This document shows positions 32,960 to 49,796 of a stretch of DNA of 64,000 nt, one piece after another. The DNA is from Salipiger bermudensis HTCC2601 (lineage in GTDB: Bacteria > Pseudomonadota > Alphaproteobacteria > Rhodobacterales > Rhodobacteraceae), in assembly GCF_000153725.1 (NCBI RefSeq), contig NZ_DS022277.1:1-64000 (forward strand). The letters are read 5' to 3'. Each line of letters starts with the position of its first letter. Position 1 is the first letter of the stretch. The position numbers were made by a program, and so were the translations under genes. The notes beneath the pieces were generated by a model. It made no database searches. It worked only from the letters and a program-made list of their open reading frames with translations, and had not been told where the DNA came from.

Positions 32960-34996
32960 TCAGACGGTGCGCACCAGGCGCAGTGCGTCGTAGATGGCGG
33001 CATGGGTGTTTCGCGCCGCGACCGCATCGCCGATGCGGAACAGCTGGAAGCTGTCAGTCGGCCCGGTTGCGACCTTCTGTGCGGCGCCAGCCACCAAAGC
33101 CTCGTGATCGACCTCGCCAAGATTCACCGATTTCGGTTTGAGGTCGAAATAGAGGTCATCCAGCGGCCGGGTGCCGTGGTTGACGATCACTTGGTCGACC
33201 TCGCGGGTACGGGTCACGCCGCCGTAATCCGACCCCAGCACCGCCTTCAGCCCGTTGCCGTCGCGCTGCACGTCCGTCAGTCGCCAAGTGACGGTAAAAG
33301 TGGTGTCCTTCGCCTGGAGGCTGCGCATGTAGGGCACCAGGTTCATCGCCATGACCTCGGGGGCAAAGGCGCGATCGGGGGTCACGATCTCGACCCGGGC
33401 GCCGGTGGCAGCGATGATATCCGCCGCCTGCAGGCCCGCGTGGTCGCCCGCGTCGTCGAAGATCAGGACGTTGCTGCCCGGCTTCACGTCTCCTGAGAGG
33501 ATGTCCCAAGCCGAGACCACAAGGTCGTCGCCGCTGGTCAGAACCTCGGTGTGGGGCAGGCCGCCGGTGGCGATGACTACAACGTCGGGCTCGGTTGCCA
33601 GCACGTCGGCCTCATCGGCGAAGCTGTTGAAGTTGAAGGTCACGCCCAGCTTCTCGCACTGATTGAAACGCCATGCGATGATCGAGGACATCTCGCGCCG
33701 ACGCTCCTGCAGGGCGGTCAGGCGGATCTGGCCGCCCGGCTGGGCCGCGGCCTCGAAGACGGTCACCTCGTGGCCGCGCTCAGCCGCAACGCGGGCGGCT
33801 TCCATGCCTGCGGGGCCCGCGCCCACGATGGTCACGCGCTTGGGCGTGTCGGCCTTGGCGATCATGTGTGGCTGTTCGATTTCGCGACCGGTCGAGGGGT
33901 TGTGCAGACAAAGCGCCATGCCGCCCTGATAGATCCGGTCGAGGCAATAGTTGGCGCCCACGCAGGGACGAATGTCATCCTCCCGGCCCTCGACGATCTT
34001 GCGCACCAGATGCGGGTCCGCGATGTGCGCGCGGGTCATGCCCACCATGTCCAGCTTGCCCGAGGCGATCGCGTGGCGCGCGGTGGCCACGTCGGGGATC
34101 TTGGCGGCGTGGAAGGTCGGGAAGTCGGTGGCCTTGCGGATCTCACCTGCGAAATCGAGGTGCGGGGCGTTGCGCATGCCTTGCACCGGGATCACGTCGG
34201 TCAGACCTGCGTCGGTAGCAATATGGCCCTTCACCACGTTGAGGAAGTCGACCAGTCCACTGTCCTTGAGCTTGCGCGAGATCTCGATCCCGTCCTTGGC
34301 GTCGAACCCGCCGGGCAGGTCTTCGTCACCGGTGTATCTCACGCCCAACAGGAACTCTTCGCCGCAACGCTCCCGGATTCCGCGCAGCACGTCGAAGGTG
34401 AACCGCAGGCGATTGTCGAGGCTGCCACCGTAGGGCCCCTCGAGATCGTTGGTCAGAGGCGACCAGAACTGGTCCATCAGGTGCCCGTAGGCCTGGATTT
34501 CGAGCCCGTCGAGGCCAGCCGCCTTCATGCGTTCGGCGGCCTGCACGTAATCCTCGACGATGCGCGCGATATCCCAGTCTTCCATTTTCTTTGGGAAGGC
34601 GCGGTGCGATGCCTCGCGCTCGTGGCCCGGCGAGACCACCGGCAGCCAGTCGGCCTTGTCCCAGCGGGTGCGGCGGCCGAGATGGGTCAACTGGATCATC
34701 ACCGCGCAGCCCTCGTCGTGGCACTCCTGCGCCAGCTTGGACATGTGGGCCACGACCTCGTCCTTCCAGGCGAGGATGTTGTTGAACACCGGCGGGCTGT
34801 CGCGCGACACGCTGGCCGATCCTGCGGTCATGGTCAGCGCAACGCCGGCCTTGGCGCGCTCCACGTGGTAGGCGCGATAGCGGTCCTTGGGCATGCCGTC
34901 CTCGGGATAGGCCGGCTCGTGGCTGGTGATCATGATGCGGTTCTTCAGCGTCAGATGCTTGAGCTGATAGGGCTGGAGAAGCGGGTCGTTCGACAT
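32960..34996 (-). CDS. hpbA: N-methylproline / betaine demethylase, flavin- and Fe-S-dependent
   Basis: A 678-residue protein of the old-yellow-enzyme/trimethylamine-dehydrogenase type: an FMN TIM barrel (about 1-370), a loop with Fe-S cysteines, then an FAD/NAD-binding half starting at RVTIVGAGPAGMEAARVAAE. StcD-like enzymes of this family remove the N-methyl of N-methylproline (stachydrine catabolism). In the hydroxyproline-betaine pathway this is HpbA. The cluster loop reads RPCVGANYCLDRIYQGGMAL then CLHN, with three Cys visible and no Cys at the place of the second one in dienoyl-CoA reductases (see findings). It is transcribed divergently from the TetR gene. The start is the ATG ending at 34996. 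Confidence 0.82.
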   Translation of the reverse strand: MSNDPLLQPYQLKHLTLKNRIMITSHEPAYPEDGMPKDRYRAYHVERAKAGVALTMTAGSASVSRDSPPVFNNILAWKDEVVAHMSKLAQECHDEGCAVMIQLTHLGRRTRWDKADWLPVVSPGHEREASHRAFPKKMEDWDIARIVEDYVQAAERMKAAGLDGLEIQAYGHLMDQFWSPLTNDLEGPYGGSLDNRLRFTFDVLRGIRERCGEEFLLGVRYTGDEDLPGGFDAKDGIEISRKLKDSGLVDFLNVVKGHIATDAGLTDVIPVQGMRNAPHLDFAGEIRKATDFPTFHAAKIPDVATARHAIASGKLDMVGMTRAHIADPHLVRKIVEGREDDIRPCVGANYCLDRIYQGGMALCLHNPSTGREIEQPHMIAKADTPKRVTIVGAGPAGMEAARVAAERGHEVTVFEAAAQPGGQIRLTALQERRREMSSIIAWRFNQCEKLGVTFNFNSFADEADVLATEPDVVVIATGGLPHTEVLTSGDDLVVSAWDILSGDVKPGSNVLIFDDAGDHAGLQAADIIAATGARVEIVTPDRAFAPEVMAMNLVPYMRSLQAKDTTFTVTWRLTDVQRDGNGLKAVLGSDYGGVTRTREVDQVIVNHGTRPLDDLYFDLKPKSVNLGEVDHEALVAGAAQKVATGPTDSFQLFRIGDAVAARNTHAAIYDALRLVRTV

Positions 34997-35042
34997 GTGC
35001 GGGTGCCTCCGAGGGTGCCGGGTAAGAAACGATACGGAAAAA

Positions 35043-35114
35043 TGTACAGCTATGTCGTGTCCGGCAGGAAGCAGAATGCGACGGGACCATGTGAAAATTC
35101 GACACCACTGTACA
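35043..35114. promoter_or_regulatory. intergenic control region of hpbA and the TetR gene
   Basis: Two TGTACA palindromes (35043-35048 and 35109-35114) lie 66 bases apart. The sequence ATGTCGTGTC at 35052-35061 resembles the ATGTCGCGAC boxes found upstream of hpbB1. This suggests that one regulator contacts both the hpbA and hpbB1 promoters. Confidence 0.35.
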
Positions 35115-35138
35115 ATCTCTGGACATCCCGTAAGGGTC

Positions 35139-35786
35139 ATGGAAAATGGCGCGATGACCGACAAGACCCCTCTTCCCGATCGCGGCTGGCGTGGCTCGCC
35201 GGAACTGTGGCTTGATGCAGCCTATGACGCGTTGATCGACAAGGGGGTCGACGCCGTGAAGATCTTGCCGCTGGCCAATTCCCTGAACTTGTCGCGCACC
35301 AGCTACTACTGGTTCTTCAAGGACCGCCGCGCATTGCTGCTCGCGCTGCTGCAGCGCTGGGAGGCGACAACGACCGAACCGCTTCTCGAGATCACCAGGG
35401 CCTATGCCGCGACCGAGGCCGAAGCCATTCTTGGCGTGATCTCGATCTTCCTGGGCGACATTGGCTTCGATCGGCGGCTGGAACTGGCGGTTCGCGCCTG
35501 GGCGCAGCAAGACACGGAGGTCGCGGACATGCTGCAGGAGGCGGATGCCAAGCGGCTGTCGGCCCTGCGCGAGCTGCTGCTCCGCTGGGGACACGGGGAA
35601 GAAGATGCCGACGTGCGCGCCCGGACGATCTACCTCGTGCAAATCGGCTATATCTCGATGCGGATCGCGGAAAGCGTCGAGGACCGGATTCAGCGCGTTC
35701 CCTACTATGTGGAAGTCTACTCCGGACAGCGGCCTTCAGCGGACGAGATGGCACGTTTCCGCGCAAGAGTGACCGTCCCCGACTGA
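35139..35786 (+). CDS. TetR-family regulator of the betaine island
   Basis: A protein of about 215 residues. The HTH is IDKGVDAVKILPLANSLNLS then RTSYYWFFKDRRALLLALLQ, a TetR pattern with the uncommon YYWFF for YxYF. The long helix LERAVRAWAQ-like region (LAVRAWAQQDTEVADMLQEA) follows. Two ATGs are possible, 35139 and 35154; the first has AAGGG close by, the second GGAAA at a better distance. It is divergent from hpbA and precedes the hpbB1 operon on the same strand. It most likely controls both, with the paired boxes at 35799 and 35821 as operator. Confidence 0.8.
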   Translation: MENGAMTDKTPLPDRGWRGSPELWLDAAYDALIDKGVDAVKILPLANSLNLSRTSYYWFFKDRRALLLALLQRWEATTTEPLLEITRAYAATEAEAILGVISIFLGDIGFDRRLELAVRAWAQQDTEVADMLQEADAKRLSALRELLLRWGHGEEDADVRARTIYLVQIGYISMRIAESVEDRIQRVPYYVEVYSGQRPSADEMARFRARVTVPD

Positions 35787-35798: not shown

Positions 35799-35830
35799 AT
35801 GTCGCGACATCCCGGCCGACATGTCGCGAT
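35799..35830. promoter_or_regulatory. paired ATGTCGCGA boxes upstream of hpbB1
   Basis: ATGTCGCGACAT (35799-35810) is a perfect 12-base palindrome, and ATGTCGCGAT (35821-35830) repeats it 22 bases further on, two helical turns. They lie 137-168 bases upstream of the hpbB1 start, directly after the TetR gene stop. Repeat, palindrome and phasing together make this the best operator candidate of the island. Confidence 0.65.
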
Positions 35831-35966: not shown

Positions 35967-37223
35967 ATGCTGCGCGAATCCGAAGTGCTGTCGCTGTTGA
36001 TGCGCCGCACCCCCGCACATTCCCTGGAACAGGACCTCTATTGCGACGCAGGCGTCTTCGAGGTCGACATGGAGAAGATCTGGTACCGCGAATGGGTCTT
36101 TGCCATCCCGGCCTGCGAGATCCCGAAGGCCGGTGAATTCGTCGTGCACGAGATCGGCGCCTATTCCGTCGTCATCGTGCGCGGCAACGATGGTGAGATC
36201 CGCGCATTTCACAACGCCTGCCGGCACCGCGGCTCGGTCCTGTGCAAGACCAAGAAGGGCAGGGGCCCGAAGCTGGTCTGTCCTTACCACCAGTGGACCT
36301 ACGAGCTGGATGGCTCGCTTCTCTGGGCGCGTGATATGGGCCCCGACTTTGTCGCTTCGGATCACGGGCTGATGTCAGTTCATTGCCGCAATGTCTCGGG
36401 AATGGTCTACATCTGCCTTGCGGACGAGGCGCCCGAGTTCGAGGACTTTGCCGCCGAAGCCGCACGCTATCTCGCCCCGCATGATCTGGAGAATTCCAAG
36501 GTCGCTTTCGAAAGCACGATCATCGAGAAGGGCAATTGGAAGCTCGTCTGGGAAAACAACCGCGAATGCTATCACTGCTCGGGCAACCACCCTTCGCTGT
36601 GCCTGACCTTCCCGGATGATCCGCGGGCCATCGGCAACGACGACTCCGGACAGCTTTCAGGGCTTCTCGAGACCCATGTCGCGCGTTGCGAGGCGGTCGG
36701 CGCTCCCTCCGCGCACAAGGAGGATCCGGTCCGGGGGGACTGGCGCTTCGTTCGCACCCCGTTGCTCGGCGCGGGCGAGAGCTACACTCTGGATGGGAAG
36801 GTCGCTGTCACGAAACCGAACAGCTCGATCCCCTTCAAAGATGCCGGCAGTCTCTTGAAGTACAAATACCCGGGATGCTGGAACCATTTCCTGTCTGACC
36901 ATGCCCTGATCTTCCGCGTCACGCCGATCAGTGCCACGGAGACCGAGGTCTGCACGAAGTGGCTGGTTCACAAGGATGCGGTCGAGGGCCAGGACTACGA
37001 TGTCAAGCGCCTGACCGAGGTCTGGCTCGCGACCAACGATGAGGACCGCGAAGTGGTTGAGAACAACCAGCGCGGCATTCTCAGCCCTGCCTACCGACCG
37101 GGCCCCTATTCGCCGACCCATGAGGGCGGCAACATCCAGTTCACCGATTGGTACGCCGAGACCATCGTCCGCGCCATCACCGGGCCGGACCGGCGCGGCA
37201 AGCTCACCGTGGCGGCAGAATAA
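35967..37223 (+). CDS. hpbB1: Rieske-type betaine demethylase, oxygenase subunit
   Basis: A 418-residue ring-hydroxylating-type oxygenase that removes an N-methyl from (hydroxy)proline betaine by hydroxylation, giving formaldehyde. The Rieske [2Fe-2S] ligands are Cys85-x-His87 and Cys105-x2-His108. The mononuclear-iron His203 and His208 lie in WENNRECYHCSGNH, the motif of glycine-betaine and stachydrine demethylases (GbcA family). The ATG at 35967 is chosen because AGGAGT stands just before it; the frame extends upstream without coding signs. It is followed after 3 bases by its reductase, the pair matching HpbB1/C1 of the known pathway. Confidence 0.88.
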   Translation: MLRESEVLSLLMRRTPAHSLEQDLYCDAGVFEVDMEKIWYREWVFAIPACEIPKAGEFVVHEIGAYSVVIVRGNDGEIRAFHNACRHRGSVLCKTKKGRGPKLVCPYHQWTYELDGSLLWARDMGPDFVASDHGLMSVHCRNVSGMVYICLADEAPEFEDFAAEAARYLAPHDLENSKVAFESTIIEKGNWKLVWENNRECYHCSGNHPSLCLTFPDDPRAIGNDDSGQLSGLLETHVARCEAVGAPSAHKEDPVRGDWRFVRTPLLGAGESYTLDGKVAVTKPNSSIPFKDAGSLLKYKYPGCWNHFLSDHALIFRVTPISATETEVCTKWLVHKDAVEGQDYDVKRLTEVWLATNDEDREVVENNQRGILSPAYRPGPYSPTHEGGNIQFTDWYAETIVRAITGPDRRGKLTVAAE

Positions 37224-37226: not shown

Positions 37227-38315
37227 ATGTCGATCACGTCTGATCTCATTGCCACCGCGAACAGCGGCATTTGGACCGATAGCGAGATGCTGGAGTGCTG
37301 TGCCGTTGTTCCAGAGGCACCGGACACGGTCACCATAAGCTTCGTCTCTCCCTCCGGAAACCTGTTCAAGTACGAGCCCGGGCAGTTCCTGACGCTGGAA
37401 CTGCCGGTGCCCGGCGGGCCGCTCTACCGGACCTACACAATCAGTTCCTCACCTTCGCGACCTCTGTCTTTGTCGATCACGGTGAAAGCACAGCCCGGCA
37501 GCATCGGGACGCGCTGGATGCTGGAGAAACTGATGCCCGGAATGCGGGTCAAGGCAATCGGCCCGGCAGGCCAGTTCACGCTGGATACGACCGCAAGGAA
37601 GAAGAAGTACCTCTTCATCTCGGCCGGGTCCGGCGTGACGCCAACGCTGGCGATGACGACGTACCTCTACGACAGAGGGACTGATATCGACGTCAGTATC
37701 ATCAACTGCGCCCGTCGGCCCGGTGAGATCATAGGACGGCGCTCCCTGGCCGCGATGGCGTCGCGCGTGCCGTCAATCAAGCTCACGTTCATCGTTGAGG
37801 AGGACGACCCTTTTCAGGTCTGGACGGGTCTGCGCGGCAGGCTCAACCAGATCATGATCGGTATCGTTGCCGGAGACTATCTGGAGCGCGACATCTACTG
37901 CTGCGGACCGGAGCCCTTCATGGATGCCGTACGGGAGATGCTGATCGGCCTTGGCTACGACATGTCGCGTTACAGTCAGGAGAGCTTTTCCGCACCTGCG
38001 GAAACTGCCGAGGACGTGCCAGACCTTGACGATGTCACACCTGACGAGTCGGTGGCGGCACAGATCACTTTCGTGAGCTCCAAGGTGACGGCGGGTTGCA
38101 CCGAGACGGACACGGTCCTGGCCGTCGCCCGTGGTGCGGGGCTGAACATCCCCTCGGGCTGCACCTTCGGGGTTTGCGGGACATGCAAGATCCGCAAGAC
38201 CAAGGGCGAGGTCCACATGGTCCACAACGGCGGCATTTCGGAAGACGACATCGCGGACGGCTACATCCTTGCCTGCTGCTCGAAGCCGGTCGGCCAGGTC
38301 GAAGTTGATATCTGA
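37227..38315 (+). CDS. hpbC1: NADH-dependent reductase subunit of the Rieske demethylase
   Basis: A 362-residue electron-transfer protein with FAD, NAD and ferredoxin domains in that order. RTYTISSSPS (68-77) binds flavin, LFISAGSGVTPTLAMTTYLY binds NAD, YCCGPEPFMDAV lies near the end of the NAD domain, and the C-terminal plant-type [2Fe-2S] ferredoxin shows GCTFGVCGTCKIRKTKG and the last Cys in LACCSKP. It would pass electrons from NADH to the Rieske oxygenase encoded just upstream. Architecture and length fit GbcB/HpbC1-type reductases. Confidence 0.88.
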   Translation: MSITSDLIATANSGIWTDSEMLECCAVVPEAPDTVTISFVSPSGNLFKYEPGQFLTLELPVPGGPLYRTYTISSSPSRPLSLSITVKAQPGSIGTRWMLEKLMPGMRVKAIGPAGQFTLDTTARKKKYLFISAGSGVTPTLAMTTYLYDRGTDIDVSIINCARRPGEIIGRRSLAAMASRVPSIKLTFIVEEDDPFQVWTGLRGRLNQIMIGIVAGDYLERDIYCCGPEPFMDAVREMLIGLGYDMSRYSQESFSAPAETAEDVPDLDDVTPDESVAAQITFVSSKVTAGCTETDTVLAVARGAGLNIPSGCTFGVCGTCKIRKTKGEVHMVHNGGISEDDIADGYILACCSKPVGQVEVDI

Positions 38316-38336
38316 GGGTTAAATCGGAGGGCAACC

Positions 38337-39893
38337 ATGGAGACAGAGGCAGCGGCAAAGCGGGGGCGCAGCGGAGGGCGCGCGGCACGGCGCTCGCGCC
38401 GCAGCAAGCACGATGTTGCAATGTTGCCCGGTCTGCACAATACCTTGCCGCCGTGCGAAGTCCTCGATCACGAGATGGTTGAACGGATCGATGCGGCCTC
38501 CATGGACATCCTTGAGCAGGTTGGCGTGGTCTTTCGCGACCCGGAGGCCCTTGCGGACTGGAGCGCGATCGGAGCGAAGGTCGTTGGGGAGCGGGTCTAC
38601 CTTGATCGTGGGCTGGTGCGTGACCTGATCGCCACCATTCCGGCGGATTTCACCTACAGCGCCCGAAACCCGGAAAACAACCTGCGTTTGGGGGGGCAGC
38701 ACGCGATCTTCGTGCCGATGACCGGCGCGCCCTTCCTGCGCGACCTCGATGACGTACGGCGAACGCCTACGCTCGAAGATCTGGCGATGTTCCACAAGCT
38801 GGCACATATGTCACCGGCGCTGCATTCCACCGCCCACCACATCGTAGAGCCCTGCGATCACCCGATCAGCCAGCGCCATCTGCGCATCACCTACTCCTCG
38901 ATGAAACACTCGGACAAGATCTTCATGGGCATGACGACCAGCCCGAAGAACGCCGAAGATGTGATGCAGATGTGTGCGCTGCTGTTCGGCGAGGACTTTC
39001 TGGAGACCAATCCTGTTACGACCGGAAACATCAACGGCAACTCGCCGCTGGTGTGGGACGAGACGATGCTGGGCGCCATGCGGGCCTTCTGCCGCCGAAA
39101 CCAGCCAGTGCTGTGCTCGCCCTTCGTGCTTGGTGGCGCGAATACCCCCGCTTCGGTGCCTGCGGCAGTCGCGCAACTGAACGCCGAGGCGCTCTCGGCT
39201 CTGGCTTACACGCAGGTGATCCGGCGCGGCTGCCCCGCGATCTACGGACACTACCTGTCCACGGTGTCGATGAAATCCGGCGCACCGATGGCGGGGACGC
39301 CCGAGATCAGCTTGATGAACTTCATGATCGGGCAGATGGCGCGCTGGTACCGCATTCCCTGGCGGACCTCGAACACGCTGGGCGGGGCCAAAACCTTCGA
39401 CGCTCAGGCCGGTTATGAGAGCGGCGCAACGCTTTCGGCCGTGATGCATTCCGGCGCCAACTATATCTGGCACTCGGCGGGATGGAACGAGGCTGGCATG
39501 CACTGCTCCGTCGCGAAGTTCGTCGTCGATGCGGAGCAGTGCGCCATGGCCTGTCGCATGGCCGAAGGTCCGAACTGGGCGGACTTCGATGCAGCGCTTT
39601 CTGCGATCCGCGACGTCGGTCCCGGAGGACACTATCTGGGCCATCCGCATACGCAGGACAACTTCCAGACGGCGTTCTACATGCCCAAGCTCTTCGACAA
39701 CAACTCGATCGAGCAGTGGACCGCCGAAGGCTGCAAGGAGATCACAGCGCGCGCCCTCGACCATGCCCGGTCGCTTCTGGATGCCTACGAGGAGCCGAAG
39801 TTGGACGAGGCGCGGGACGACGCGCTGCGCGACTTCATCGACAGGCGCGAACGCGAGATCCCGGCAGCGGATGCCCTGAACCAGACATACTGA
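38337..39893 (+). CDS. MttB-superfamily (non-pyrrolysine) methyltransferase
   Basis: A 518-residue TIM-barrel protein of the trimethylamine methyltransferase family. There is no internal amber codon in the frame, so it belongs to the non-Pyl branch that includes glycine betaine and proline betaine methyltransferases (MtgB, MtpB). Conserved stretches include [40 protein letters not shown] and [20 protein letters not shown]. These enzymes transfer a methyl group to a corrinoid protein. No corrinoid protein or activator gene is seen in this window, although the gene is co-oriented with hpbB1/C1. Betaine demethylation is a strong inference; the acceptor is unknown. Confidence 0.82.
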
Positions 39894-39906: not shown

Positions 39907-39935
39907 GGCCCGCCGCGATGGCGGGTCCTTTTTTT
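39907..39935 (+). terminator. intrinsic terminator after the mttB-like gene
   Basis: GGCCCGCC pairs with GGCGGGTCC around GCGAT and is followed by TTTTTTTTC. This is a standard Rho-independent terminator, only 20 bases upstream of the hpbD start, so hpbD either needs read-through or its own promoter. Confidence 0.85.
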
Positions 39936-39948: not shown

Positions 39949-41052
39949 ATGAAGATTGCCGAGATCCAGCTTTTCCAGCACGACCTTCCGGTCGTGAATG
40001 GTCCTTACCGCATCGCCAGCGGGGACGTCTGGTCGCTGACGACCACCATCGTCAAGATCATTGCCGAGGACGGCACGATCGGCTGGGGAGAGACCTGTCC
40101 GGTCGGTCCCACCTATGCCGAGGCCCATGCGGGCGGGGCCCTTGCCGCCCTCGAGGTTCTGGCTTCCGGCCTCGCCGGCGCGGAGGCTCTGCCCCTGCCA
40201 CTGCACACCCGCATGGACAGCCTGTTGTGCGGACACAACTATGCCAAGTCCGCGCTGGATATCGCGGTTCACGATCTCTGGGGCAAGCGGCTTGGCGTGC
40301 CTGTTCACGAACTCCTGGGCGGTGCTCTTACCGATAGCGTCTCCTCATATTACTCACTGGGGGTGATGGAGCCCGACGAGGCTGCAAGGCAGGCCCTCGA
40401 AAAGCAGCGCGAGGGATATTCCCGGCTTCAGGTGAAGCTTGGCGCGCGACCCATCGAGATCGACATCGAGGCGATCCGCAAGGTCTGGGAGGCTGTCCGC
40501 GGCACCGGTATTGCCCTTGCGGCCGACGGCAATCGCGGCTGGACAACCCGTGACGCCCTGCGCTTCAGCCGCGAATGCCCCGACATTCCCTTCGTGATGG
40601 AGCAACCCTGCAACTCCTTCGAGGATCTGGAGGCGATCCGCCCGCTGTGTCACCACGCGCTCTACATGGACGAGGATGGCACCAGCCTGAACACGGTGAT
40701 CACCGCCGCGGCGACGTCCCTTGTCGACGGCTTCGGCATGAAGGTCAGCCGCATTGGCGGGCTGCAGCACATGCGCGCGTTTCGGGACTTTTGCGCGGCG
40801 CGGAATCTGCCGCACACATGCGACGACGCCTGGGGTGGGGATATTGTCTCGGCCGCCTGCACACACATCGCCTCGACAGTCTTGCCGCGGCTGATGGAAG
40901 GGGCGTGGCTTGCACAGCCCTATGTTGCAGAGCACTACGATGCGGAGAACGGCGTGCGCATTGAGGGGGGACGAATCCGTGTCCCGCAGGGTCCGGGTCT
41001 TGGATTGACCATCGACCCCGAGCGTTTCGGACCACCGCTCTTCTCCGCATGA
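39949..41052 (+). CDS. hpbD: 4-hydroxyproline betaine 2-epimerase (enolase superfamily)
   Basis: A 367-residue muconate-lactonizing/mandelate-racemase-type enzyme. Counting from the start, Lys163 (LQVKLGA) and Lys265 (GMKVSRI) are the general bases, Asp193 (AADGN), Glu218 (FVMEQ) and Asp241 (YMDED) the metal ligands, and Trp320 (MEGAWLA) the residue expected to hold the quaternary ammonium by cation-pi contact. These places coincide with those reported for HpbD of Pelagibaca bermudensis, as I recall them. It epimerises trans- to cis-4-hydroxyproline betaine, or L- to D-proline betaine, ahead of demethylation. It lies behind a terminator and convergent with the hypO-type gene. Confidence 0.92.
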
Positions 41053-41112: not shown

Positions 41113-42450
41113 TCATTCCTTCGCGGCGCGGTACTCTTTCCAACGCATCCAGGCATTGGCGCCGATCTCGCGGAAGGGGCGGGGGGGCAGACGACTGGGG
41201 CGGGCCTCGCCTGTGAAATGTGCGGTGATGGCGCTGCTGTTTCCGCTGGCGAGTTCCGCCGCGCCCATCCCCGTCAGCGTGCCGCGCGCCGTCCCGAGCC
41301 CGTTCTGGACGCAGCCCGAGAACAGGCCGTCGTCCAGTTGGCGCATGACCGAGACCCCGTTCATCGTCAGGCACAGGTGACCGGACCAAGCGTGCTCCAT
41401 CTCCATGCCGGCAAGTTGCGGAAACCGCTGGTCGAACTTGTCCTGCATGACCCGGGCCGCACGCGCCAGATCCGCGTCGCCGACCTTCATGCCGGGCCGG
41501 AGAGCCGCGCAGGTGCGGGTCACGATGCGGTTGCCACCCTGACCCGCGTCGATCCGGCGGATGGTGGTGCCCATCGGATCCGAAGGCGTGATGCCCCAGC
41601 GCGGATGACCGCCGAGCCGCGAGATGGTCTCGTTGTCCAGCTCGGGCGTCATCACCGCGAACAGGAAAACCTGCATGAGCCGCCCGGTTTCGAACCCGAA
41701 GCTCTCGAGATGGCCGTTCACGGTCAGGATGACGCGACCGGCGGTCACGGTTCCGGACGCCGTCGAGGCGCGCCAGTCGCCCGATACGCGTTCCAATTCC
41801 GTGACGGGCGCATTCTCCAGGACCTCGACGCCGTCGCGGCGCAAGCCTGTGGCCAGCCCCCGGATGTATCCCGCCGGCTGGAGCATGACCGTGCCGGGCG
41901 TGTACAGCCCGCCCAGATAGTGCGAGGATCCGGTGATCTCGCGCATTTGCCGCGCATCCAGCAGCTCGGAGCGTTCGCCGAGACTTTCGAGATGACGGGC
42001 GTAGCTCTGGTTGTGCGCCGCGGCGGTCTCGGAGGCGGCGCCGTTGATCTTTCCGGCGCGGTCGAAGAACCCGGGCGAGATGCCATAGTCCGCAACGGCC
42101 TCGCCGGCGAACCCGATGGCCCGCCGGTTGAGATCGATCATCGTGCGGTCATCTCCGCTGCCGGCATAGTCGTCAGACGCCAGATCGTGCGGCAGGTCGA
42201 TCATGAAGCCGGAATTGCGGCCCGCCGAGCTGTCGGCCAGCTTCCCGGCCTCGAGCACGACAATCCGCGCCGAGGGCTCGAGCTGGCGCATGCGCCGCGC
42301 CGCCGAGAGACCGGCAAAGCCTGCACCGACGATCAACACGTCGGCGGTGCGGGCGCCATACAAGGTCACAGGCGGCTCGGCCGGCAGCAGCCGGTTCCAT
42401 CCTGCCGGCCCGCGAAGAGCCGGCAGCTGGCGCACCGTCAGTCTTGTCAA
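41113..42450 (-). CDS. hypO: FAD-dependent D-hydroxyproline oxidase-like (DAO family)
   Basis: A 445-residue flavoprotein. VLIVGAGFAGLSAARRMRQL binds FAD and EAGKLADSSAGRNSGFMIDL is the flavin loop. The far segment is FSGCVQNGLGTARGTLTGMG. In the HypO role it would oxidise cis-4-hydroxy-D-proline to the 4-hydroxy-pyrroline-2-carboxylate that HypD uses; the family alone also fits other amine oxidases, so the context decides. The only start that matches the full domain is a TTG at 42450 that overlaps the aldehyde dehydrogenase stop as TTGA, implying coupled translation. It is the last gene of the gntR-hypD-aldH-hypO operon. Confidence 0.72.
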   Translation of the reverse strand: MTRLTVRQLPALRGPAGWNRLLPAEPPVTLYGARTADVLIVGAGFAGLSAARRMRQLEPSARIVVLEAGKLADSSAGRNSGFMIDLPHDLASDDYAGSGDDRTMIDLNRRAIGFAGEAVADYGISPGFFDRAGKINGAASETAAAHNQSYARHLESLGERSELLDARQMREITGSSHYLGGLYTPGTVMLQPAGYIRGLATGLRRDGVEVLENAPVTELERVSGDWRASTASGTVTAGRVILTVNGHLESFGFETGRLMQVFLFAVMTPELDNETISRLGGHPRWGITPSDPMGTTIRRIDAGQGGNRIVTRTCAALRPGMKVGDADLARAARVMQDKFDQRFPQLAGMEMEHAWSGHLCLTMNGVSVMRQLDDGLFSGCVQNGLGTARGTLTGMGAAELASGNSSAITAHFTGEARPSRLPPRPFREIGANAWMRWKEYRAAKE

Positions 42451-43940
42451 TCCACGGCCTCGTCTGCATCATCGCCAAGGTCGACCCAGATAGTCTTCAG
42501 CTGGGTGTACTGATCGTGGGCATGGATGCCGTTGTCCCGGCCTCCGAAACCGGACTGCTTGTAGCCTCCGAACGGTGTCGCGCTGTCGCCTTCGCCAAAG
42601 CTGTTGACCGTGACGGTGCCGGCGCGGATCGCCCGCGCGCCGCGGAGCGCCTTTTTGACGTTGGCGGTGAAGATCGAGGCCGCAAGCCCGTACTCGGTGT
42701 CGTTGGCCAGCGCGATGGCCTCGTCGAAGCCTTCGACTGTCAGGACCGAGAGCACCGGCCCGAAGATCTCTTCGCGCACCTGCCGGTCATCGCGGCGGGC
42801 CTCGATCACCGTGGGTTCGACGAAGCCGTTTTCGGCCTTGCCACCCACCAGCGCTTTCGCCCCCTCGAGATAGCTTGCCACCTTCTCGAAATGCGCCTTC
42901 GACACCAACGCGCCGACGCGCGTTTCCGGGTTTAGGGGGTCACCAACCGGCCATTCGCGGGTGTGGGCGATGATGCGCTCGATCAGGGCGTCCTTGATCC
43001 CTTTCTGTACGATGAGACGGGAGCTGGCCGAACAGTTCTCGCCCATGTTCCAAAAGGCGCCGTTGACCACGTGCGCGGCGACACGGTCGATGTTCTCGGC
43101 ATCGTCGAGCACGACGGCAGGATTTTTGCCGCCCATCTCGAGCGTGACTTCCTTGATGTTGGATTCGGCCGAGTAGCCAAGGAAGCGCCGCCCGGTTGCG
43201 GTGGAGCCGGTGAAGGAGACGGCATCAATGTCGGGGTGACGGCCCAGCGGCTCGCCGACCTCGGCACCGCCGCCCGGGACCACGTTGAAGACGCCCGCGG
43301 GCAGGCCCGCCTCAGCGGCCAGTTCCGCAAGGCGCAGTGCGGTCAGAGAGGTCTCCTCGGCCGGTTTCACCACCACCGAGCAGCCGGCAGCCAGCGCCGG
43401 GCCGATCTTCCAGGCCAGCATCAGCAGCGGGAAGTTCCAGGGCAGCACCAGACCGACGACGCCGACGGGTTCCCGCACCACCATCGCGATATGATCGTCG
43501 GAGGACGGCGCGAGCTGGTCATAGATCTTGTCGATCAGTTCAGCGTGCCAGAGCAGGCAGTGGATGGTCTCGGGAATGTCGACGGTCTCACAGTCGTAGA
43601 TCGTCTTGCCGCTGTCGAGGCTCTCCATCACCGCCAGCTCACGCGCGTTGCGCTTCATCAGCTTGGCCAGCCTGATGAGCACCTCCTTGCGCTCGGCCGG
43701 GTGCAGGCGGGACCAGCGGCCGTCCTCGAAGGCATCGCGGGCCTTCTCGACGGCGAAATCCACATCGGTCGCGTCGCAGGCGGCAACCTTGGCCAGAACG
43801 TCGCCGGTGGCGGGGTTCAGGCTGTCGAAGGTCTTGCCCGATTGCGCGGGGCGGAAACTGCCATCGATGAAGGCCTGCGTCGGGAACGACAGTTCGGCGG
43901 CGATGGCTTTGTATTCTTCGGTCGTCAGAAGATCGCTCAT
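42447..43940 (-). CDS. aldehyde dehydrogenase, probable 2-oxoglutarate semialdehyde dehydrogenase (HypH role)
   Basis: A 497-residue NAD(P)-dependent aldehyde dehydrogenase of the PuuC/BetB type. PWNFPLLMLAWKIGPALAAG binds the cofactor, VTLEMGGKNPAVVL carries the general-base Glu, and NMGENCSASSRLI the catalytic Cys. Between hypD and hypO it should oxidise 2-oxoglutarate semialdehyde, as HypH does. The PuuC-type sequence would also accept other omega-amino aldehydes. The ATG ending at 43940 has GGAG eight bases before it and is preferred over a GTG at 43949. The gene overlaps its neighbour hypO. Confidence 0.8.
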   Translation of the reverse strand: MSDLLTTEEYKAIAAELSFPTQAFIDGSFRPAQSGKTFDSLNPATGDVLAKVAACDATDVDFAVEKARDAFEDGRWSRLHPAERKEVLIRLAKLMKRNARELAVMESLDSGKTIYDCETVDIPETIHCLLWHAELIDKIYDQLAPSSDDHIAMVVREPVGVVGLVLPWNFPLLMLAWKIGPALAAGCSVVVKPAEETSLTALRLAELAAEAGLPAGVFNVVPGGGAEVGEPLGRHPDIDAVSFTGSTATGRRFLGYSAESNIKEVTLEMGGKNPAVVLDDAENIDRVAAHVVNGAFWNMGENCSASSRLIVQKGIKDALIERIIAHTREWPVGDPLNPETRVGALVSKAHFEKVASYLEGAKALVGGKAENGFVEPTVIEARRDDRQVREEIFGPVLSVLTVEGFDEAIALANDTEYGLAASIFTANVKKALRGARAIRAGTVTVNSFGEGDSATPFGGYKQSGFGGRDNGIHAHDQYTQLKTIWVDLGDDADEAVD

Positions 43941-43945
43941 GTCAG

Positions 43946-44848
43946 TCACTCCGCTGCGATTTCGGCCACGGTGCGCTTGAGCACGCGGACCACCTGTTCA
44001 AGCTGACGCTTGTCATCCTTGTTGAGACCCTTCAGCGGGGGCCGCGGCGGACCGGCGTAGAGACCGTTCATCTCGACGCCGTGCTTGACGCACTGGATGA
44101 ACTTGCCGCCCTGCTCCAGAACGCGCATCAGCGGCATCATCGCGGACATGATGCGGCGGCCCTTGTCGAAATTTCCCTCGACGGCACACGCGGTGTAGAG
44201 CGCGATATGCTCTTGCGGCAGGAAGTTCGACCCGGCGCAAACCCAGCTGCGGGCGCCCCAGGCGAAGAACTCCAGCGCCTGATCGTCCATGCCGCAGGAC
44301 ATCTGGATATGCGGATAGTCGCGAGCGAGCAGGTGGACCCGGTTGATGTCACCCGAGCTTTCCTTGATCGCGCAGACATTGCGCGAGCGTCCCACCCGGT
44401 CAAGGAACTCCTCGCCCATGTTGATGCCCATCCGGCCCGGATAGTTGTACAGCATGATCGGCAGGTCTGCGGCGCGGTCGATGGCCAGCGCGTTCAGAGC
44501 GTTCTCCCGCTCGGTCGGCACCGAGTAGGGCGGAGAGCCCACGAGGATACAATCTGCCCCGATCTTGGCCGCGTGCTCGGCCATGGCGATGCTGTCGGGC
44601 AGGCGCAGCGCCACCGTGCCGATCATCAGCGGTACGCGGTTCCCGATGACGTCCTTGGCAAGGCTCGCCATCTCCATGCGTTCGTCCATGGATTGGGCGT
44701 AGTATTCACCAGTCGACCCGCCGTTGATCAATCCGTGGACACCCGCGTCGATCAGATACTCGATCTGCGCGGCAAAGGCGTCCCGGTCGATGCTGCCATC
44801 GTCGCGGTGGGGCGTGATGACAGGCGTGTATATGCCTTCGAACTTCAT
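43946..44848 (-). CDS. hypD: pyrroline-4-hydroxy-2-carboxylate deaminase, DapA family
   Basis: A 300-residue member of the dihydrodipicolinate synthase/N-acetylneuraminate lyase family. Schiff-base Lys162 is in NVCAIKESSGD, Tyr134 in LYNYPGRMG, and the phosphate/carboxylate loop GGSTGEYY is at 43-50. In the hydroxyproline pathway this fold removes water and ammonia from 4-hydroxy-pyrroline-2-carboxylate to give 2-oxoglutarate semialdehyde. The assignment rests on its place between GntR and an aldehyde dehydrogenase, next to a HypO-like oxidase and hpbD. The start (ATG ending at 44848) overlaps the regulator stop by ATGA, and the stop overlaps the next gene region. Confidence 0.85.
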   Translation of the reverse strand: MKFEGIYTPVITPHRDDGSIDRDAFAAQIEYLIDAGVHGLINGGSTGEYYAQSMDERMEMASLAKDVIGNRVPLMIGTVALRLPDSIAMAEHAAKIGADCILVGSPPYSVPTERENALNALAIDRAADLPIMLYNYPGRMGINMGEEFLDRVGRSRNVCAIKESSGDINRVHLLARDYPHIQMSCGMDDQALEFFAWGARSWVCAGSNFLPQEHIALYTACAVEGNFDKGRRIMSAMMPLMRVLEQGGKFIQCVKHGVEMNGLYAGPPRPPLKGLNKDDKRQLEQVVRVLKRTVAEIAAE

Positions 44849-45567
44849 GAAGCTCCCTTTATGGCTGTGGCCCCTGGCGCCTCTCCAAGCGGGATCTGCA
44901 TGCCCTGGGGGGTGACGAAATTCTGGATCTCGGCGCGCGACAGCTCCCAGTGCTCGATGGCAAGGGCCTCGGCGGCATCGGCATCGCCCGCCTCAATGTG
45001 GGCGATGAATTGGTCATGCTGGTCGGCCGCAACGGTACGTTGCCGGGCCATGGATGTGTTGCGCGGGCTGTAGAAGGTCATGCCGATACGGGTGTGGTCG
45101 ATCAGGAGGCGCCGCAGCGAGGGGAAAAGGTACTCGTTCGAGGCCATTTCGCCAATGATCGCGTGGAAGCTCTGGTTGGTGAGCGCGCGTTCGGCAGCAT
45201 CGCCGTCCCGGATCGCGGCGCGGAACAGAAGCTGCGTGTCCTTCAGGCGCATTAGCTGTGCTTTCGTCCCGTTCAGCGCGGCGAGGCGCGAAACGGCGGC
45301 GTAGATCATCGGCGCGGCCACGAAGAAGTTTCGCAGCGTCTTGTGCGTCATCGGGGCAACCTGCGTCCCCCGATTCTTGTGCAGCACGACATAGTCTTCG
45401 CCTGCCAGTTGAAACAGCACTTCGCGCAGAGGGGGGCGGGAAATCTCGTAGGCCTCTGCCAGCTGGGTTTCATCCAGATAGCTGCCCGGCTCCAGATCCT
45501 CGGTCAGGATTCTCCGCCGCAAGTCCTCTAAGCACTTCATTTTTTTCGTCTTGGGGTCGTCGGCCAT
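44845..45567 (-). CDS. GntR-family regulator of the hyp operon
   Basis: A 240-residue GntR/FCD regulator. The winged HTH is LRRRILTEDLEPGSYLDETQ then LAEAYEISRPPLREVLFQLA, and the C-terminal all-helical FCD domain includes HDQFIAHIEAGDADAAEALA. It is the first gene of the minus-strand hyp operon, coupled to hypD, and lies divergent from the proVWX-type importer. It is therefore placed to control import and catabolism together through the site at 45653-45669, probably induced by hydroxyproline or a pyrroline intermediate. Confidence 0.87.
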   Translation of the reverse strand: MADDPKTKKMKCLEDLRRRILTEDLEPGSYLDETQLAEAYEISRPPLREVLFQLAGEDYVVLHKNRGTQVAPMTHKTLRNFFVAAPMIYAAVSRLAALNGTKAQLMRLKDTQLLFRAAIRDGDAAERALTNQSFHAIIGEMASNEYLFPSLRRLLIDHTRIGMTFYSPRNTSMARQRTVAADQHDQFIAHIEAGDADAAEALAIEHWELSRAEIQNFVTPQGMQIPLGEAPGATAIKGAS

Positions 45568-45696: not shown

Positions 45697-46776
45697 ATGA
45701 CCAAAGAAACGGACGAAGCCGTCATCCGCTGCGATGGCGTGTGGAAAATCTTCGGCGGCAGGGCGGACCAAGCCTTGCAAGCCGTGCAGCAACAGGGACT
45801 TTCGAAGGAAGAAACGCGAGACCAGTACGATTGCGTGGTCGGCGTGCGTGATGCCTCGTTCGAAGTGAGGCGTGGCGAGATCTTCTGCATCATGGGCTTG
45901 TCGGGCTCCGGCAAATCCACGCTGATCCGGCATATCAATCGCCTGATCGAACCGACGGCAGGGGCGATCTATATCGAGGGTCGCAACATCAACGAGATGT
46001 CGCAGAAGGATCTGCGGCAGCTTCGGGCCGAGAAGATCGGCATGGTGTTCCAGAGCATGGCGCTGATGCCGCATCGCACGGTTCTGGAGAACGTCGCCTT
46101 CAGCCAGGAGGTGCGAGGCCATTCCGTGAAGGAGCGCAACGCCAACGCGATGCGGGCGATTCACTCGGTCGAGCTGGATGGCTGGGAAAGCAAGTATCCT
46201 GATGAGCTGTCGGGCGGCATGCAACAAAGGGTCGGACTGGCGCGGGCCATCGCGGCCGATCCATCGATCTTGCTCATGGACGAGCCGTTCTCGGCGCTCG
46301 ACCCCCTGATCCGCCGCCAGCTTCAGGATACTTTCATGGCGCTGTCGGCAGAGATGAAGAAGACGACGCTCTTCATCACGCACGACCTCGACGAAGCAAT
46401 CCGCATCGGTGACCGCATTGCGATCATGAAGGATGGCGTTCTCGTGCAGATCGGGACGCCAGAGGACATCGTGACCAATCCCGCCGACGACTATGTCGCG
46501 GATTTCGTCGCTGGCATTTCCAAGCTCGAACTCGTGTCGGCGGGCAAGATCATGGAGCCCGTCGCGTCCTACGAACAGCGTCGTGGGAATGCCGACATGA
46601 CCGGATGGCCCGAGGCACACCCGGAGCAGTCGCTCGACGATCTGCTAAACCTCTCCATCGCGACCCAGCACCCGATCGTCGTCAAGATCGACGGTCGTCC
46701 GCTGGGCGTCGTCACCAAGAACGCCCTGCTTCGGGGCATCAAGGGCGGGGCCGATGATACCGGCGCTGCCGCCTGA
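45697..46776 (+). CDS. betaine ABC importer ATPase (ProV-type)
   Basis: A 359-residue ATPase for quaternary-amine uptake. Walker A is IMGLSGSGKSTLIRHINRLI, the signature DELSGGMQQRVGLARAIAAD and Walker B SILLMDEPFSALDPLIRRQL. The N-terminal DGVWKIFGGRADQALQAVQQ and the segment up to VVGVRDASFEVRRG are typical of ProV/OpuA. The CBS-like C-terminus ends with IVVKIDGRPLGVVTKNALLR. In this cluster it should drive proline betaine/hydroxyproline betaine import (HpbJ/X/N/H-like role). The starting ATG follows GGAGGATCAA. The permease gene starts 14 bases later. Confidence 0.9.
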   Translation: MTKETDEAVIRCDGVWKIFGGRADQALQAVQQQGLSKEETRDQYDCVVGVRDASFEVRRGEIFCIMGLSGSGKSTLIRHINRLIEPTAGAIYIEGRNINEMSQKDLRQLRAEKIGMVFQSMALMPHRTVLENVAFSQEVRGHSVKERNANAMRAIHSVELDGWESKYPDELSGGMQQRVGLARAIAADPSILLMDEPFSALDPLIRRQLQDTFMALSAEMKKTTLFITHDLDEAIRIGDRIAIMKDGVLVQIGTPEDIVTNPADDYVADFVAGISKLELVSAGKIMEPVASYEQRRGNADMTGWPEAHPEQSLDDLLNLSIATQHPIVVKIDGRPLGVVTKNALLRGIKGGADDTGAAA

Positions 46777-46790
46777 ACGGGAGCTGCTCC

Positions 46791-47777
46791 ATGGAAAACG
46801 AAGAGACCTTCAATTGGCTTGACCCCTTCTCCTCGGTCGATCTCGGAATTGCTGACAGTGCCGACGGCGTCAAGCAGTGGGCGATCTCCAACCGCGACGT
46901 GATCCAGCCGATCAAGCAGGTGTTCAACGAGCTGGTGGTGGCGATCGACACGAGCCTGAACGCGGTGCCGCCGACACTCATGCTGATCCTCCTGGTGCTG
47001 ATCGCATGGCAGGCCGCGGGTTCGCGCACCGCGATCATCGTCGGCGTCGCGCTGACCTGTCTCGGCCTGCTGTCGCCAGATGCCTGGGGCCTGGCAATGA
47101 CGACGCTGGCCATCGTCATCGCAGCGGTGGTCGTGTGTTTCGTCATCGGCTTGCCGCTCGGCATTCTCGCTGCAAAGAACGACACCTTCGAAAAGATGCT
47201 GAGGCCGGTTCTCGACACGATGCAGACCATCCCCGCGTTCGTCTATCTGGTCCCGGTGGTCATGCTGGTTGGGATCGGCAACGTCTCGGGCGTGATCGTC
47301 ACGATCATCTTCGCCCTGCCGCCGCTGATCCGCCTGACCTCGCTGGGCATCCGAGGCGTGAACCCCTCGGTCGTCGAAGCCGCCCGGGCCTTTGGCGCCT
47401 CGCCGCGGCAGATCCTCTTCAAGGTCGAACTGCCCTTGGCCACCCCGACCATCCTGGCCGGCGTGAACCAGACCATCATGCTGTCGCTGTCGATGGTGGT
47501 TATCGCCTCCATGATTTCGGTGAAGGGACTCGGCAACGAGGTGCTGCGCGCCATGGGTCGTCTGGACGCCGGCAAGGCCATCGTCGGTGGCCTTGGCATC
47601 GTGATCCTGGCCATCGTGCTGGATCGCATCAGTCAGGGCATGGGCCAGTCTGGTCGCGAGCGTGGACACCGCCATTGGTGGCAGGGCGGGCCGGTCGGTC
47701 TGGCATTGCGGATGACCGGACCAAAGAACGAAACGACGCCGCCTGCTGCGCAGGCGACGGCGAAACCCGAAACCTGA
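46791..47777 (+). CDS. betaine ABC importer permease (ProW-type)
   Basis: A 328-residue permease. After the cytoplasmic or periplasmic FNWLDPFSSVDLGI N-terminus come hydrophobic helices such as TLMLILLVLIAWQAAGSRTA and PDAWGLAMTTLAIVIAAVVV. The conserved contact loop to the ATPase is GVNPSVVEAARAFGASPRQI, and the QTIPAFVYLVPVVMLVGIGN stretch matches ProW/OpuAB. The C-terminal tail GHRHWWQGGPVGLA is hydrophilic. Full length. It lies between the ATPase and binding-protein genes of one operon. Confidence 0.9.
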   Translation: MENEETFNWLDPFSSVDLGIADSADGVKQWAISNRDVIQPIKQVFNELVVAIDTSLNAVPPTLMLILLVLIAWQAAGSRTAIIVGVALTCLGLLSPDAWGLAMTTLAIVIAAVVVCFVIGLPLGILAAKNDTFEKMLRPVLDTMQTIPAFVYLVPVVMLVGIGNVSGVIVTIIFALPPLIRLTSLGIRGVNPSVVEAARAFGASPRQILFKVELPLATPTILAGVNQTIMLSLSMVVIASMISVKGLGNEVLRAMGRLDAGKAIVGGLGIVILAIVLDRISQGMGQSGRERGHRHWWQGGPVGLALRMTGPKNETTPPAAQATAKPET

Positions 47778-47799
47778 ACTCAACAACAGGGAGATACAT

Positions 47800-48789
47800 A
47801 TGTTCAGACCCAACATTTTCGCGACCCTTGTCGCCACCACCTGCCTTTCGGCGCCCGCAATGGCGCAGGACATGCCCGGCGAAGGCACAACTGTTCGCCC
47901 CATCATCGGCTTGATCGCCGAAGAGATGTTCCAGGCACGGGTCCTGTTCAGCGCCCTCGAAGATCTGGGCTATGAGGTCGCCGAGCCGCAGGAAGTCGAG
48001 ATCCAGACCGCGCATCTCGCCCTCGCGACCGGCGATGGTGATTTCTACCCGGCGCACTGGGAGACGCTGCAAAGCGCCTTCTTCGATGAGTCCGGCGGCG
48101 ATGACGTACTTGAGCGCGTTGGCCCCTTTATCGAAGGTACGCTGCAGGGCTACCTGGTCGACAAGGCAACCTATGACGCCGGCGTCACCAGCCTTGGCGA
48201 CCTGACCGATCCGGACGTTGCGGCCAAGTTCGACGCCAATGGCGATGGCTCCGCCGATCTGGCGGGGTGCGTTCCGGGCTGGGGCTGCGAGCGTGTCATC
48301 GAGCATCACCTGGAGGAATACGGCCTGCGCGACACAGTGACCCACAACCAGGGCTCCTACAACGCCATCATGGCCGACGTGATTGCCCGCCACGAAAACG
48401 GCGACCCGATCCTCTATTACACCTGGACGCCCTACTGGGTGTCGGGCGCGCTGGTGCCGGGTGAAGACGTGGAATGGCTGGAGGTGCCCTATACCTCATT
48501 GCCCGACGGCGTCGAGGCGGAGACCACGTTCGACGGCAAGAACATCGGCTTCGCCGTGGACAACATCTACATCCTCGCCACCGATGATTTCCTCGCCGAC
48601 AACCCTGCCGCAGCGAAACTGTTCGAGGTTGCGCAGATCAAAATCAACGATATCTCGGCTCAGAACAAGCTGATGGCCGATGGCGCCGATAGCTCTGACG
48701 ATATCGACCAGCATGTGGCAGACTGGATCTCTGAGAACCAGGAAACCTACGACGGCTGGCTGGAGCAGGCTCGCGCTGCAGCAAGCTGA
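47800..48789 (+). CDS. betaine-binding periplasmic protein (ProX-type)
   Basis: A 329-residue substrate-binding protein of the OpuAC/ProX family. MFRPNIFATLVATTCLSAPA followed by MAQ is a Sec signal peptide. Trp residues that would form the aromatic cage for a quaternary ammonium are at YPAHWET, GCVPGWGCE and YYTWTPYW, the last two also flanked by the Cys pair known from ProX. This agrees with uptake of trimethylated amines, here proline or hydroxyproline betaine. It is the last gene of the importer operon, 54 bases before the GlxA-type regulator. Confidence 0.9.
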   Translation: MFRPNIFATLVATTCLSAPAMAQDMPGEGTTVRPIIGLIAEEMFQARVLFSALEDLGYEVAEPQEVEIQTAHLALATGDGDFYPAHWETLQSAFFDESGGDDVLERVGPFIEGTLQGYLVDKATYDAGVTSLGDLTDPDVAAKFDANGDGSADLAGCVPGWGCERVIEHHLEEYGLRDTVTHNQGSYNAIMADVIARHENGDPILYYTWTPYWVSGALVPGEDVEWLEVPYTSLPDGVEAETTFDGKNIGFAVDNIYILATDDFLADNPAAAKLFEVAQIKINDISAQNKLMADGADSSDDIDQHVADWISENQETYDGWLEQARAAAS

Positions 48790-48842: not shown

Positions 48843-49796
48843 TTGACCGCAACGCAGCACTTTGTCTTTGCCTTGGTCGAAGACTTTACCCACATCGCCT
48901 TTTCCTGTGCCGTTGACCCCCTGCGCATCGCCAACCTGATCCGCGGGGAAGAGCTGTATCGCTGGTCTTATGCCTCGCTCAGCGGCGAGACCGTTGCCAG
49001 CTCCGACGGCACCACGATCCTGGTGCATCACGCCTTTCACGCTCTCCCTGCCTGCGACAGGCTGTTCGTGCTGTCGGGCATCGGCATGCACAGTAAGGAT
49101 CACGCCGAGCTCATTGCCGCGCTACGCCACGCCGACCGCCACGGGCGGGCCCGGATCGGGGCGCTCTGCTCCGGCGCCTACGTTTTGGCAAAGGGCGGCT
49201 TTCTGAACGGCATGCAGGCCGCGATCCACTGGGAATATCATGATCTCGTCATGGAGGAGTTTCCCGAGATCAACCTCGTTCGCAACGTCTTCGTCGTAGA
49301 TGAGCGTCACATCACAGCATCGGGGGGAACTGCGACCGCCGACCTCATGCTGCACCTGATCGAGCGCGACCACGGCAAAGACCTAGCCGTCGCGGTGGCG
49401 GACCAGATGGTCTATAATGCCGTACGTGACTCATCGGCTGCGCAGAAAGTTTCGTTGCAGTCACGGAATGGCATGCGCAATCCGCACTTGGTACGGGCGA
49501 TCGACATCATGTCACGCAACATCGAGACTCCGCGAAGCCCGTCGCAGATCGCGCGCGAGGTCGGTATCTCGCTGCGCCAGATGGAGCGCCTGTTCGGTAA
49601 ATACCTCAACAGCTCGCCGAAGAAGTACTACATGGAACTGCGCCTGGATAAGTCGCGAAACCTTCTGGTGCAGACGGACCGGTCCGTCATGGAGATTGCT
49701 CTCGCCTGCGGCTTCGAAAACTCGGGAACGTTTTCGCGGGTGTACAGGACCGCCTTCGGCGTGACGCCGATGATGCAGCGGGGCAAGCTGAAGTAG
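48843..49796 (+). CDS. GlxA-family AraC-type regulator (GbdR-like)
   Basis: A 317-residue regulator with an N-terminal DJ-1/PfpI-like domain, where GALCSGAYVLAKGGFLNGMQ places a Cys in a nucleophile-elbow-like position, and a C-terminal AraC HTH: SPSQIAREVGISLRQMERLF then FENSGTFSRVYRTAFGVTPM. Proteins of this type (GbdR, CdhR) activate betaine and carnitine genes in Pseudomonas. It follows the ProX gene on the same strand, so it may activate the importer and hpb operons. The full frame needs a TTG start at 48843; no ATG in frame fits. Confidence 0.85.
   Translation: MTATQHFVFALVEDFTHIAFSCAVDPLRIANLIRGEELYRWSYASLSGETVASSDGTTILVHHAFHALPACDRLFVLSGIGMHSKDHAELIAALRHADRHGRARIGALCSGAYVLAKGGFLNGMQAAIHWEYHDLVMEEFPEINLVRNVFVVDERHITASGGTATADLMLHLIERDHGKDLAVAVADQMVYNAVRDSSAAQKVSLQSRNGMRNPHLVRAIDIMSRNIETPRSPSQIAREVGISLRQMERLFGKYLNSSPKKYYMELRLDKSRNLLVQTDRSVMEIALACGFENSGTFSRVYRTAFGVTPMMQRGKLK

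Follow-up and report, generated by a model that had tools for sequence, protein, structure and literature searches.

A non-pyrrolysine MttB-superfamily protein of Salipiger bermudensis as a candidate hydroxyproline-betaine:corrinoid methyltransferase

Introduction

The known enzyme of the hydroxyproline-betaine pathway is a Rieske demethylase. Breakdown of this betaine was reportedly worked out by Zhao et al. in 2013, very likely in the hpb locus considered here, and the hpb cluster, as Zhao in 2013 and Kumar in 2014 are said to have described it, includes that demethylase.

Non-pyrrolysine enzymes of the MttB superfamily are often devoted to one betaine each and share a corrinoid protein encoded apart (portions of PMC8604678 and PMC12155760); those of Eubacterium limosum share MtqC in this way (PMC8604678, same portion). 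An MtgBCD route of this kind also operates in an aerobe, so that the remark in an initial annotation of the present DNA, which placed such enzymes mainly in anaerobes, no longer holds: in Ruegeria pomeroyi, an aerobe, mutants in mtgC and mtgD show no growth on glycine betaine, even with methionine, and the RamA and DUF1638 proteins rise (extracts of PMC12478193). In the same extracts, the authors count up to seven PF06253 genes per genome in marine bacteria and suggest other methylated substrates for them; the general idea examined here has therefore already been published. The kind of enzyme is thus known, and any novelty would lie in the compound acted on and in the identity of the pathway's usual demethylase. 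The open-licence literature yielded no paper linking an MttB protein with hydroxyproline betaine, a result that says little about print overall.

The locus in Salipiger bermudensis

The window analysed here is a stretch of 64,000 nucleotides (C5:1-64000) of a 5.48 Mb genome in six contigs. Its gene P0001 matches PF06253 over model positions 1-500 in a family-model search (715 bits, cut-off 25), and its frame is open from start to stop, with no amber codon, which supports the initial description of a non-pyrrolysine MttB-like gene and makes the product a candidate quaternary-amine methyltransferase of the MttB superfamily. A GGAGG ribosome-binding site lies 6 nt upstream of the ATG, and the distances first given, 21 nt from the end of the reductase ORF and 55 nt to the start of the HpbD ORF, are both as measured. 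As for the TIM-barrel fold of the superfamily, the protein matches the solved relatives 4yyc and 2qne in sequence; its own AlphaFold model, built with 20 close sequences, is poor (mean pLDDT 49).

Table 1. Positions of the features discussed; rows without a contig refer to the window (C5)
Feature	Position	Strand	Basis or remark
OYE-family flavin oxidoreductase ORF	32960..35164	-	family match
Rieske oxygenase, betaine-demethylase type	35967..37223	+	start codon chosen by us; ORF opens at 35799
Rieske reductase, GbcB-like	37227..38315	+	family-model and NCBIfam comparison
Ribosome-binding site of P0001, GGAGG	38326..38330	+
MttB-superfamily P0001, 518 aa, non-pyrrolysine	38337..39893	+	PF06253 match, intact frame, no internal stop
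Terminator-like hairpin, 9 pairs and T-run	39907..39927	+	between MttB and hpbD
HpbD	39949..41052	+	366/367 residues as in PDB 2PMQ/4H2H
DAO-family FAD oxidoreductase, candidate cis-4-hydroxy-D-proline oxidase	41113..42450	-	pathway family as in PMC4113996 (part of text)
Aldehyde dehydrogenase (ALDH), candidate alpha-ketoglutarate semialdehyde dehydrogenase	42447..43949	-	pathway family, PMC4113996 (part of text)
DHDPS-type gene	43946..44848	-	pathway family, PMC4113996 (part of text)
GntR/FCD regulator	44845..45567	-	family match
ProV/ProW/ProX-like betaine ABC transporter, three genes	45697..48789	+
GbdR-like AraC-family regulator	48843..49796	+	score below that model's cut-off
MtgD/MtgE/MtgC set, split	C6:3619305-3623547
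P0003, second PF06253 protein	C6:3704095-3705594
MetH frame, 1277 aa	C6, about 4026565-4029072
Aminobacter plasmid rows with related MttB	L207 3208-11398; L209 7908-16098		one strand in each

The window's Rieske protein is related to PDB 3n0q, 3vca and 4qup, and is also like GbcA at a score below the cut-off of the GbcA model; NCBIfam gave no name above cut-off for P0001, the Rieske protein, the reductase or HpbD. ProX alone of the transporter proteins was scanned against the family library, ProV and ProW being named by likeness to annotated homologues, and the DAO protein matched no PDB chain at E <= 1e-10. The OYE-family ORF we take, by comparison with StcD, to be a candidate N-methyl demethylase. 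The protein in 2PMQ/4H2H is HpbD, product of the gene hpbD, from strain HTCC2601, which was called Pelagibaca bermudensis before it became Salipiger bermudensis; the locus is therefore very likely the site where hydroxyproline-betaine breakdown was worked out. The window holds HpbD together with the DAO, DHDPS-type and aldehyde dehydrogenase genes of an hpb cluster.

Usual and optional companions of the MttB gene

The neighbours of P0001 were compared in 98 MttB loci, namely the best 80 of at least 590 candidates and 18 further chosen ones, by tblastn with set thresholds; the loci are related and the neighbour counts are therefore not independent. The genes most often found near MttB are DAO (80 loci), ALDH and DHDPS (76 each), GntR (69) and the GbdR-like regulator (56), followed by BCCT (12), ProV, ProW and ProX (7 each), OYE (5), and Rieske, reductase and TetR (3 each). 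At least one of DAO, ALDH, DHDPS and HpbD is nearby in 84/98 loci, so the link with hpb genes, on which the first reading had been made to depend, is conserved, with HpbD itself near MttB in only 23; the other 14 loci have none of the four within the stretch examined, some of these stretches being short. Beside this MttB, MtgC, DUF1638 and RamA genes were found in none of the 98 loci.

Arrangement varies; MttB, ALDH and DAO share a strand in 10 loci. Neorhizobium galegae has GntR-DHDPS-ALDH-DAO-MttB-HpbD on one strand and no Rieske gene in the stretch read, and plasmid pB of Cereibacter sphaeroides 2.4.1 has MttB-HpbD-SDR-SDR facing DAO-ALDH-DHDPS-GntR, with no Rieske gene within the 19 kb read. 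Two short-chain dehydrogenase genes occur near HpbD/MttB and DAO (SDR6 in 30 and SDR8 in 29 of the 98 loci, e.g., L201 11652-13162); they perhaps act on the 4-hydroxyl group. In three Roseovarius loci (L030 8299, L035 5921 and L037 7965), a second and very distant MttB-like protein, 26-28% identical to P0003, is encoded just before this MttB.

The DAO, DHDPS-type and aldehyde dehydrogenase genes belong to hydroxyproline-pathway families (PMC4113996, in part). Because these are the usual neighbours, P0001 is more likely to act on hydroxyproline betaine than on proline betaine, the compound that the initial annotation suggested for an assay.

Terminator-like sites number 3 in the 5.6 kb scanned against 3.1 in shuffles, a count that is weak alone. 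Under a stricter hairpin rule, hairpins within 140 nt after MttB were found at 25/98 loci against 43/1960 random stretches of the same loci. MttB is therefore probably the last gene of a Rieske-reductase-MttB unit in the window, and hpbD is probably transcribed by read-through or from its own start.

The gene had at first been cast as an oxygen-independent back-up in an oxidative operon, and Rieske, reductase and MttB genes do stand consecutively on one strand in L020, L049 and L085 as they do in the window, although MttB of L049 is preceded by a gap of over 300 nt. Across genomes the two genes occur independently. Of 295 host-family genomes, 75 have MttB (E <= 1e-200) and 61 have a Rieske homologue (E <= 1e-150, at least 56% identity); both occur in 13, with about 15.5 expected (p 0.51, kinship ignored), and a Rieske match at E <= 1e-150 is lacking from 62 of the 75 MttB-positive genomes. 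Rieske proteins at 76% identity or more are found in seven genomes, of which two, the window's and G303, have MttB, the latter on a different contig from its Rieske gene. In 18 loci seeded from the best Rieske matches, with the window left out, this MttB, DAO, ALDH, DHDPS and HpbD are each absent, OYE is present in 6 and TetR in 5, and two loci carry a distant MttB paralogue (37-40%).

The idea that this MttB belongs by rule to a Rieske operon was accordingly rejected (3/98 loci, independent occurrence). That P0001 serves as an oxygen-independent back-up for the Rieske demethylase is, for all the four rows just named, quite unlikely: it is not supported as a general picture, and may still apply to the window organism itself. 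The earlier framing is largely reversed, the Rieske and reductase genes being an optional partner and the hydroxyproline genes the usual companions.

A plasmid of Rhodobacter sp. CZR27 (L216 2329-7437) carries a different MttB (42% identical to P0001, 53% to P0003) beside Rieske (59%) and reductase (62%) genes, a second MttB-Rieske neighbourhood. Genome G138, from the window organism's own genus, encodes a Rieske homologue (60%) and neither this MttB (E <= 1e-200) nor a close MtgC (E <= 1e-80).

Relationship to MtgB

The second PF06253 protein of the genome, P0003, groups in a 56-row tree (99/95) with MttB proteins of Paracoccus methylovorus and Sinorhizobium meliloti, the latter identical to 4yyc over the stretch compared and encoded near a cobalamin-binding protein, DUF1638, a methyltetrahydrofolate methyltransferase and bmt. 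Because of this grouping, P0003 is taken as this genome's MtgB. P0001 lies in another clade (100/100, 35 rows), apart from S. meliloti MtgB/4yyc in both trees made. The 56-row tree has long branches, including one that joins the Aminobacter proteins discussed below to the P0001 clade.

Docking of betaine into the MtgB of Desulfitobacterium hafniense proposed contacts with Tyr94, Asn199, Arg309 and His345, which are predictions (PMC6855144, in part). The last three (Asn233, Arg343 and His379 in P0001) are kept in 105/105 orthologues of P0001, and the position of Tyr94 is Thr in all 105; the Aminobacter, Azoarcus and Paracoccus proteins retain the Tyr, as do P0003 and 4yyc. P0001 and the Aminobacter proteins also have in common two residues, Trp342 and Trp378, that adjoin the conserved Arg and His and differ from those of the MtgB group. 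On the strength of its separate clade and the Tyr94-to-Thr change, P0001 was rejected as the genome's MtgB, and its residue pattern fits a different, perhaps bulkier, substrate.

The same chemistry and corrinoid hub could act mainly on another betaine (proline, glycine or a broader range), with the hydroxyproline genes as neighbours by regulon. MtyB of E. limosum also acts weakly on other betaines (PMC8604678, in part), betaine transporters, GbdR-like or BCCT genes lie near MttB in some loci, and the 14 loci lacking a nearby hydroxyproline gene point the same way. The presence of a separate MtgB in this genome and the frequency of the hydroxyproline-route genes DAO and DHDPS near MttB make such a main substrate unlikely. 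Breakdown of proline betaine or glycine betaine is not known to need DAO or DHDPS.

Column identity averages 87% across 20 orthologues, there are no internal stops among the 75 host-family matches listed, and the three contact residues are invariant, so that a passenger gene with no present role deserves next to no credence. One copy does have the look of a passenger: on pSymA of S. meliloti AK57 (L206 9001-10472), it is split into three tblastn pieces in different reading frames.

A candidate corrinoid hub encoded elsewhere in the genome

The initial annotation saw no corrinoid protein or activator in the window, allowed for one encoded elsewhere, and proposed a genome search for an MttC-like corrinoid protein and a RamA-like activator. 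The window indeed has no B12-binding (PF02310) or RACo (PF14574) match, and the genome-wide search gave four PF02310 matches and one PF14574 match, all on contig C6. One is P0002, a 234-aa MtgC-like B12-binding protein; one is the MetH frame, with pterin and homocysteine domains inside too; and the remaining two, of 717 and 732 aa, are taken as mutases by size alone. The PF14574 match is a RACo/RamA-type activase of 678 aa, encoded at another place on C6. Pterin-binding and homocysteine-binding proteins (MtgD and MtgE) are encoded about 1.5-3.5 kb before MtgC, and the 224-aa gene after it is 52% and 60% identical to the DUF1638 genes of the Paracoccus and S. meliloti clusters. MtgC, MtgD and RamA thus occur in the same genome as P0001. 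NCBIfam gave no name above cut-off for MtgC, P0003 or the activase; this MtgC falls below the NCBIfam MtgC cut-offs, yet is 74-81% identical to copies in annotated mtg clusters.

This one genome contains both a classical MetH and a split MtgD/MtgE/MtgC set. The corrinoid set as a MetH replacement only was rejected, because the MetH frame is also present.

The two genes also co-occur. MtgC was found at 80-87% identity in all 50 named MttB-positive genomes checked, drawn from the best 80, in one case split over two contigs. Within the host family, MtgC is in 72/75 MttB-positive genomes (p 0.10, kinship ignored), which tells little because it is nearly universal there (271/295). The class sample is more informative: among 385 genomes, MtgC (E <= 1e-80) is in 74, MttB in 11 and both in 10 (Fisher p 4e-7, kinship ignored), and with five host-family genomes removed MtgC is in 7/8 against 62/372 (p 3e-5, kinship ignored).

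The strongest single clue comes from two Aminobacter plasmids, on which a related MttB opens a shared one-strand row: substrate-binding protein, B12-binding protein, enolase-superfamily protein, OYE-like (32% identity) and P5C-reductase-like. This MttB is 51% identical to P0001, the B12-binding protein is 81% identical to MtgC of the window genome, and the enolase-superfamily protein is 52-53% identical to HpbD. DAO, ALDH and DHDPS are not present in the rows, and their betaine may therefore differ. The trees favour the Aminobacter MttB as sister of the P0001 clade (support 99/95 with 56 rows, 97/92 with 24 rows); its identity to the Mesorhizobium proteins of L212 and L213 is 57%, and a tree grouping it with these is not rejected (p 0.10). 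Under either placement, it falls with P0001 and not with MtgB where the two sides part.

A new activity without a corrinoid protein has in its favour four MttB-positive drafts that have no full MtgC match, and the invariant Thr in place of Tyr94. Those drafts are 76-96% complete: G118 (76%); G286 (85%), which holds a 42-residue MtgC fragment; G518 (93%), where MtgC matches only inside a 1251-aa frame; and G210 (96%), with no MtgC match. Set against the association in the class sample and the Aminobacter row, a corrinoid-free activity is highly improbable.

Proposed function

P0001 is probably a hydroxyproline-betaine:corrinoid methyltransferase that uses MtgC in trans, a proposal in which we infer the substrate, the use of MtgC and the order of steps. 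Its substrate would be a 4-hydroxyproline betaine, most likely in the cis-4-hydroxy-D form that HpbD produces. One methyl group would leave the quaternary nitrogen for the cob(I)alamin of MtgC, whose gene lies outside the window; MtgD would then transfer that methyl group to tetrahydrofolate, and RamA with the DUF1638 protein would re-reduce cobalamin. The remaining N-methyl-hydroxyproline would lose its second methyl group oxidatively, and the D-hydroxyproline route (DAO, DHDPS-type deaminase and aldehyde dehydrogenase) would then lead to alpha-ketoglutarate. Where present, the Rieske/reductase pair would be an optional partner that uses oxygen for this same first demethylation.

More tentatively, and with our judgment nearly evenly divided, the usual first step of hydroxyproline-betaine breakdown in many aerobic Alphaproteobacteria may be cobalamin-dependent transfer via the MtgC/MtgD hub, with the Rieske enzyme as the exception. 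If so, genomes with hydroxyproline genes and MttB and no detected Rieske homologue would gain a first-step demethylase. The hub would also serve glycine betaine, as well as methionine synthesis where a strain has no MetH; hydroxyproline betaine would feed methyl-tetrahydrofolate rather than formaldehyde at the first step and could be used only with B12, so that another algal and plant osmolyte would be tied to B12 supply. One of the "up to seven" PF06253 genes of marine bacteria (PMC12478193, in part) would also acquire a substrate.

Comparison with known systems

Of the solved relatives, the MttB trimethylamine methyltransferase (PDB 7xcl) shares the family match with P0001 (92 bits), but has pyrrolysine and acts on trimethylamine (PMC9842639, in part), whereas P0001 has no in-frame stop. 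MtgB of D. hafniense (2qne) is of the same family, with the three contact residues Asn199, Arg309 and His345 kept in P0001; it is 39% identical, and belongs to an anaerobe and to glycine betaine. The proline-betaine enzyme MtpB of E. limosum, likened to P0001 by description, works with a shared corrinoid protein from another cluster (portions of PMC8604678 and PMC12155760), although it too is an anaerobe's enzyme.

The aerobic MtgBCD(E) system of R. pomeroyi and S. meliloti is of the same family, and P0001 very likely shares its corrinoid hub (MtgC, MtgD, RamA and DUF1638) in trans. It differs from S. meliloti MtgB (4yyc) in sequence (47% identical), in clade and at Tyr94, and its neighbors are hydroxyproline genes, the role of MtgB being filled here by P0003. 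Of the hpb cluster, as reportedly described by Zhao in 2013 and Kumar in 2014, the HpbD, DAO, DHDPS and ALDH families and the Rieske pair are all in the window; relative to that cluster, MttB would add a second enzyme, one that needs no oxygen, for removal of the first methyl group.
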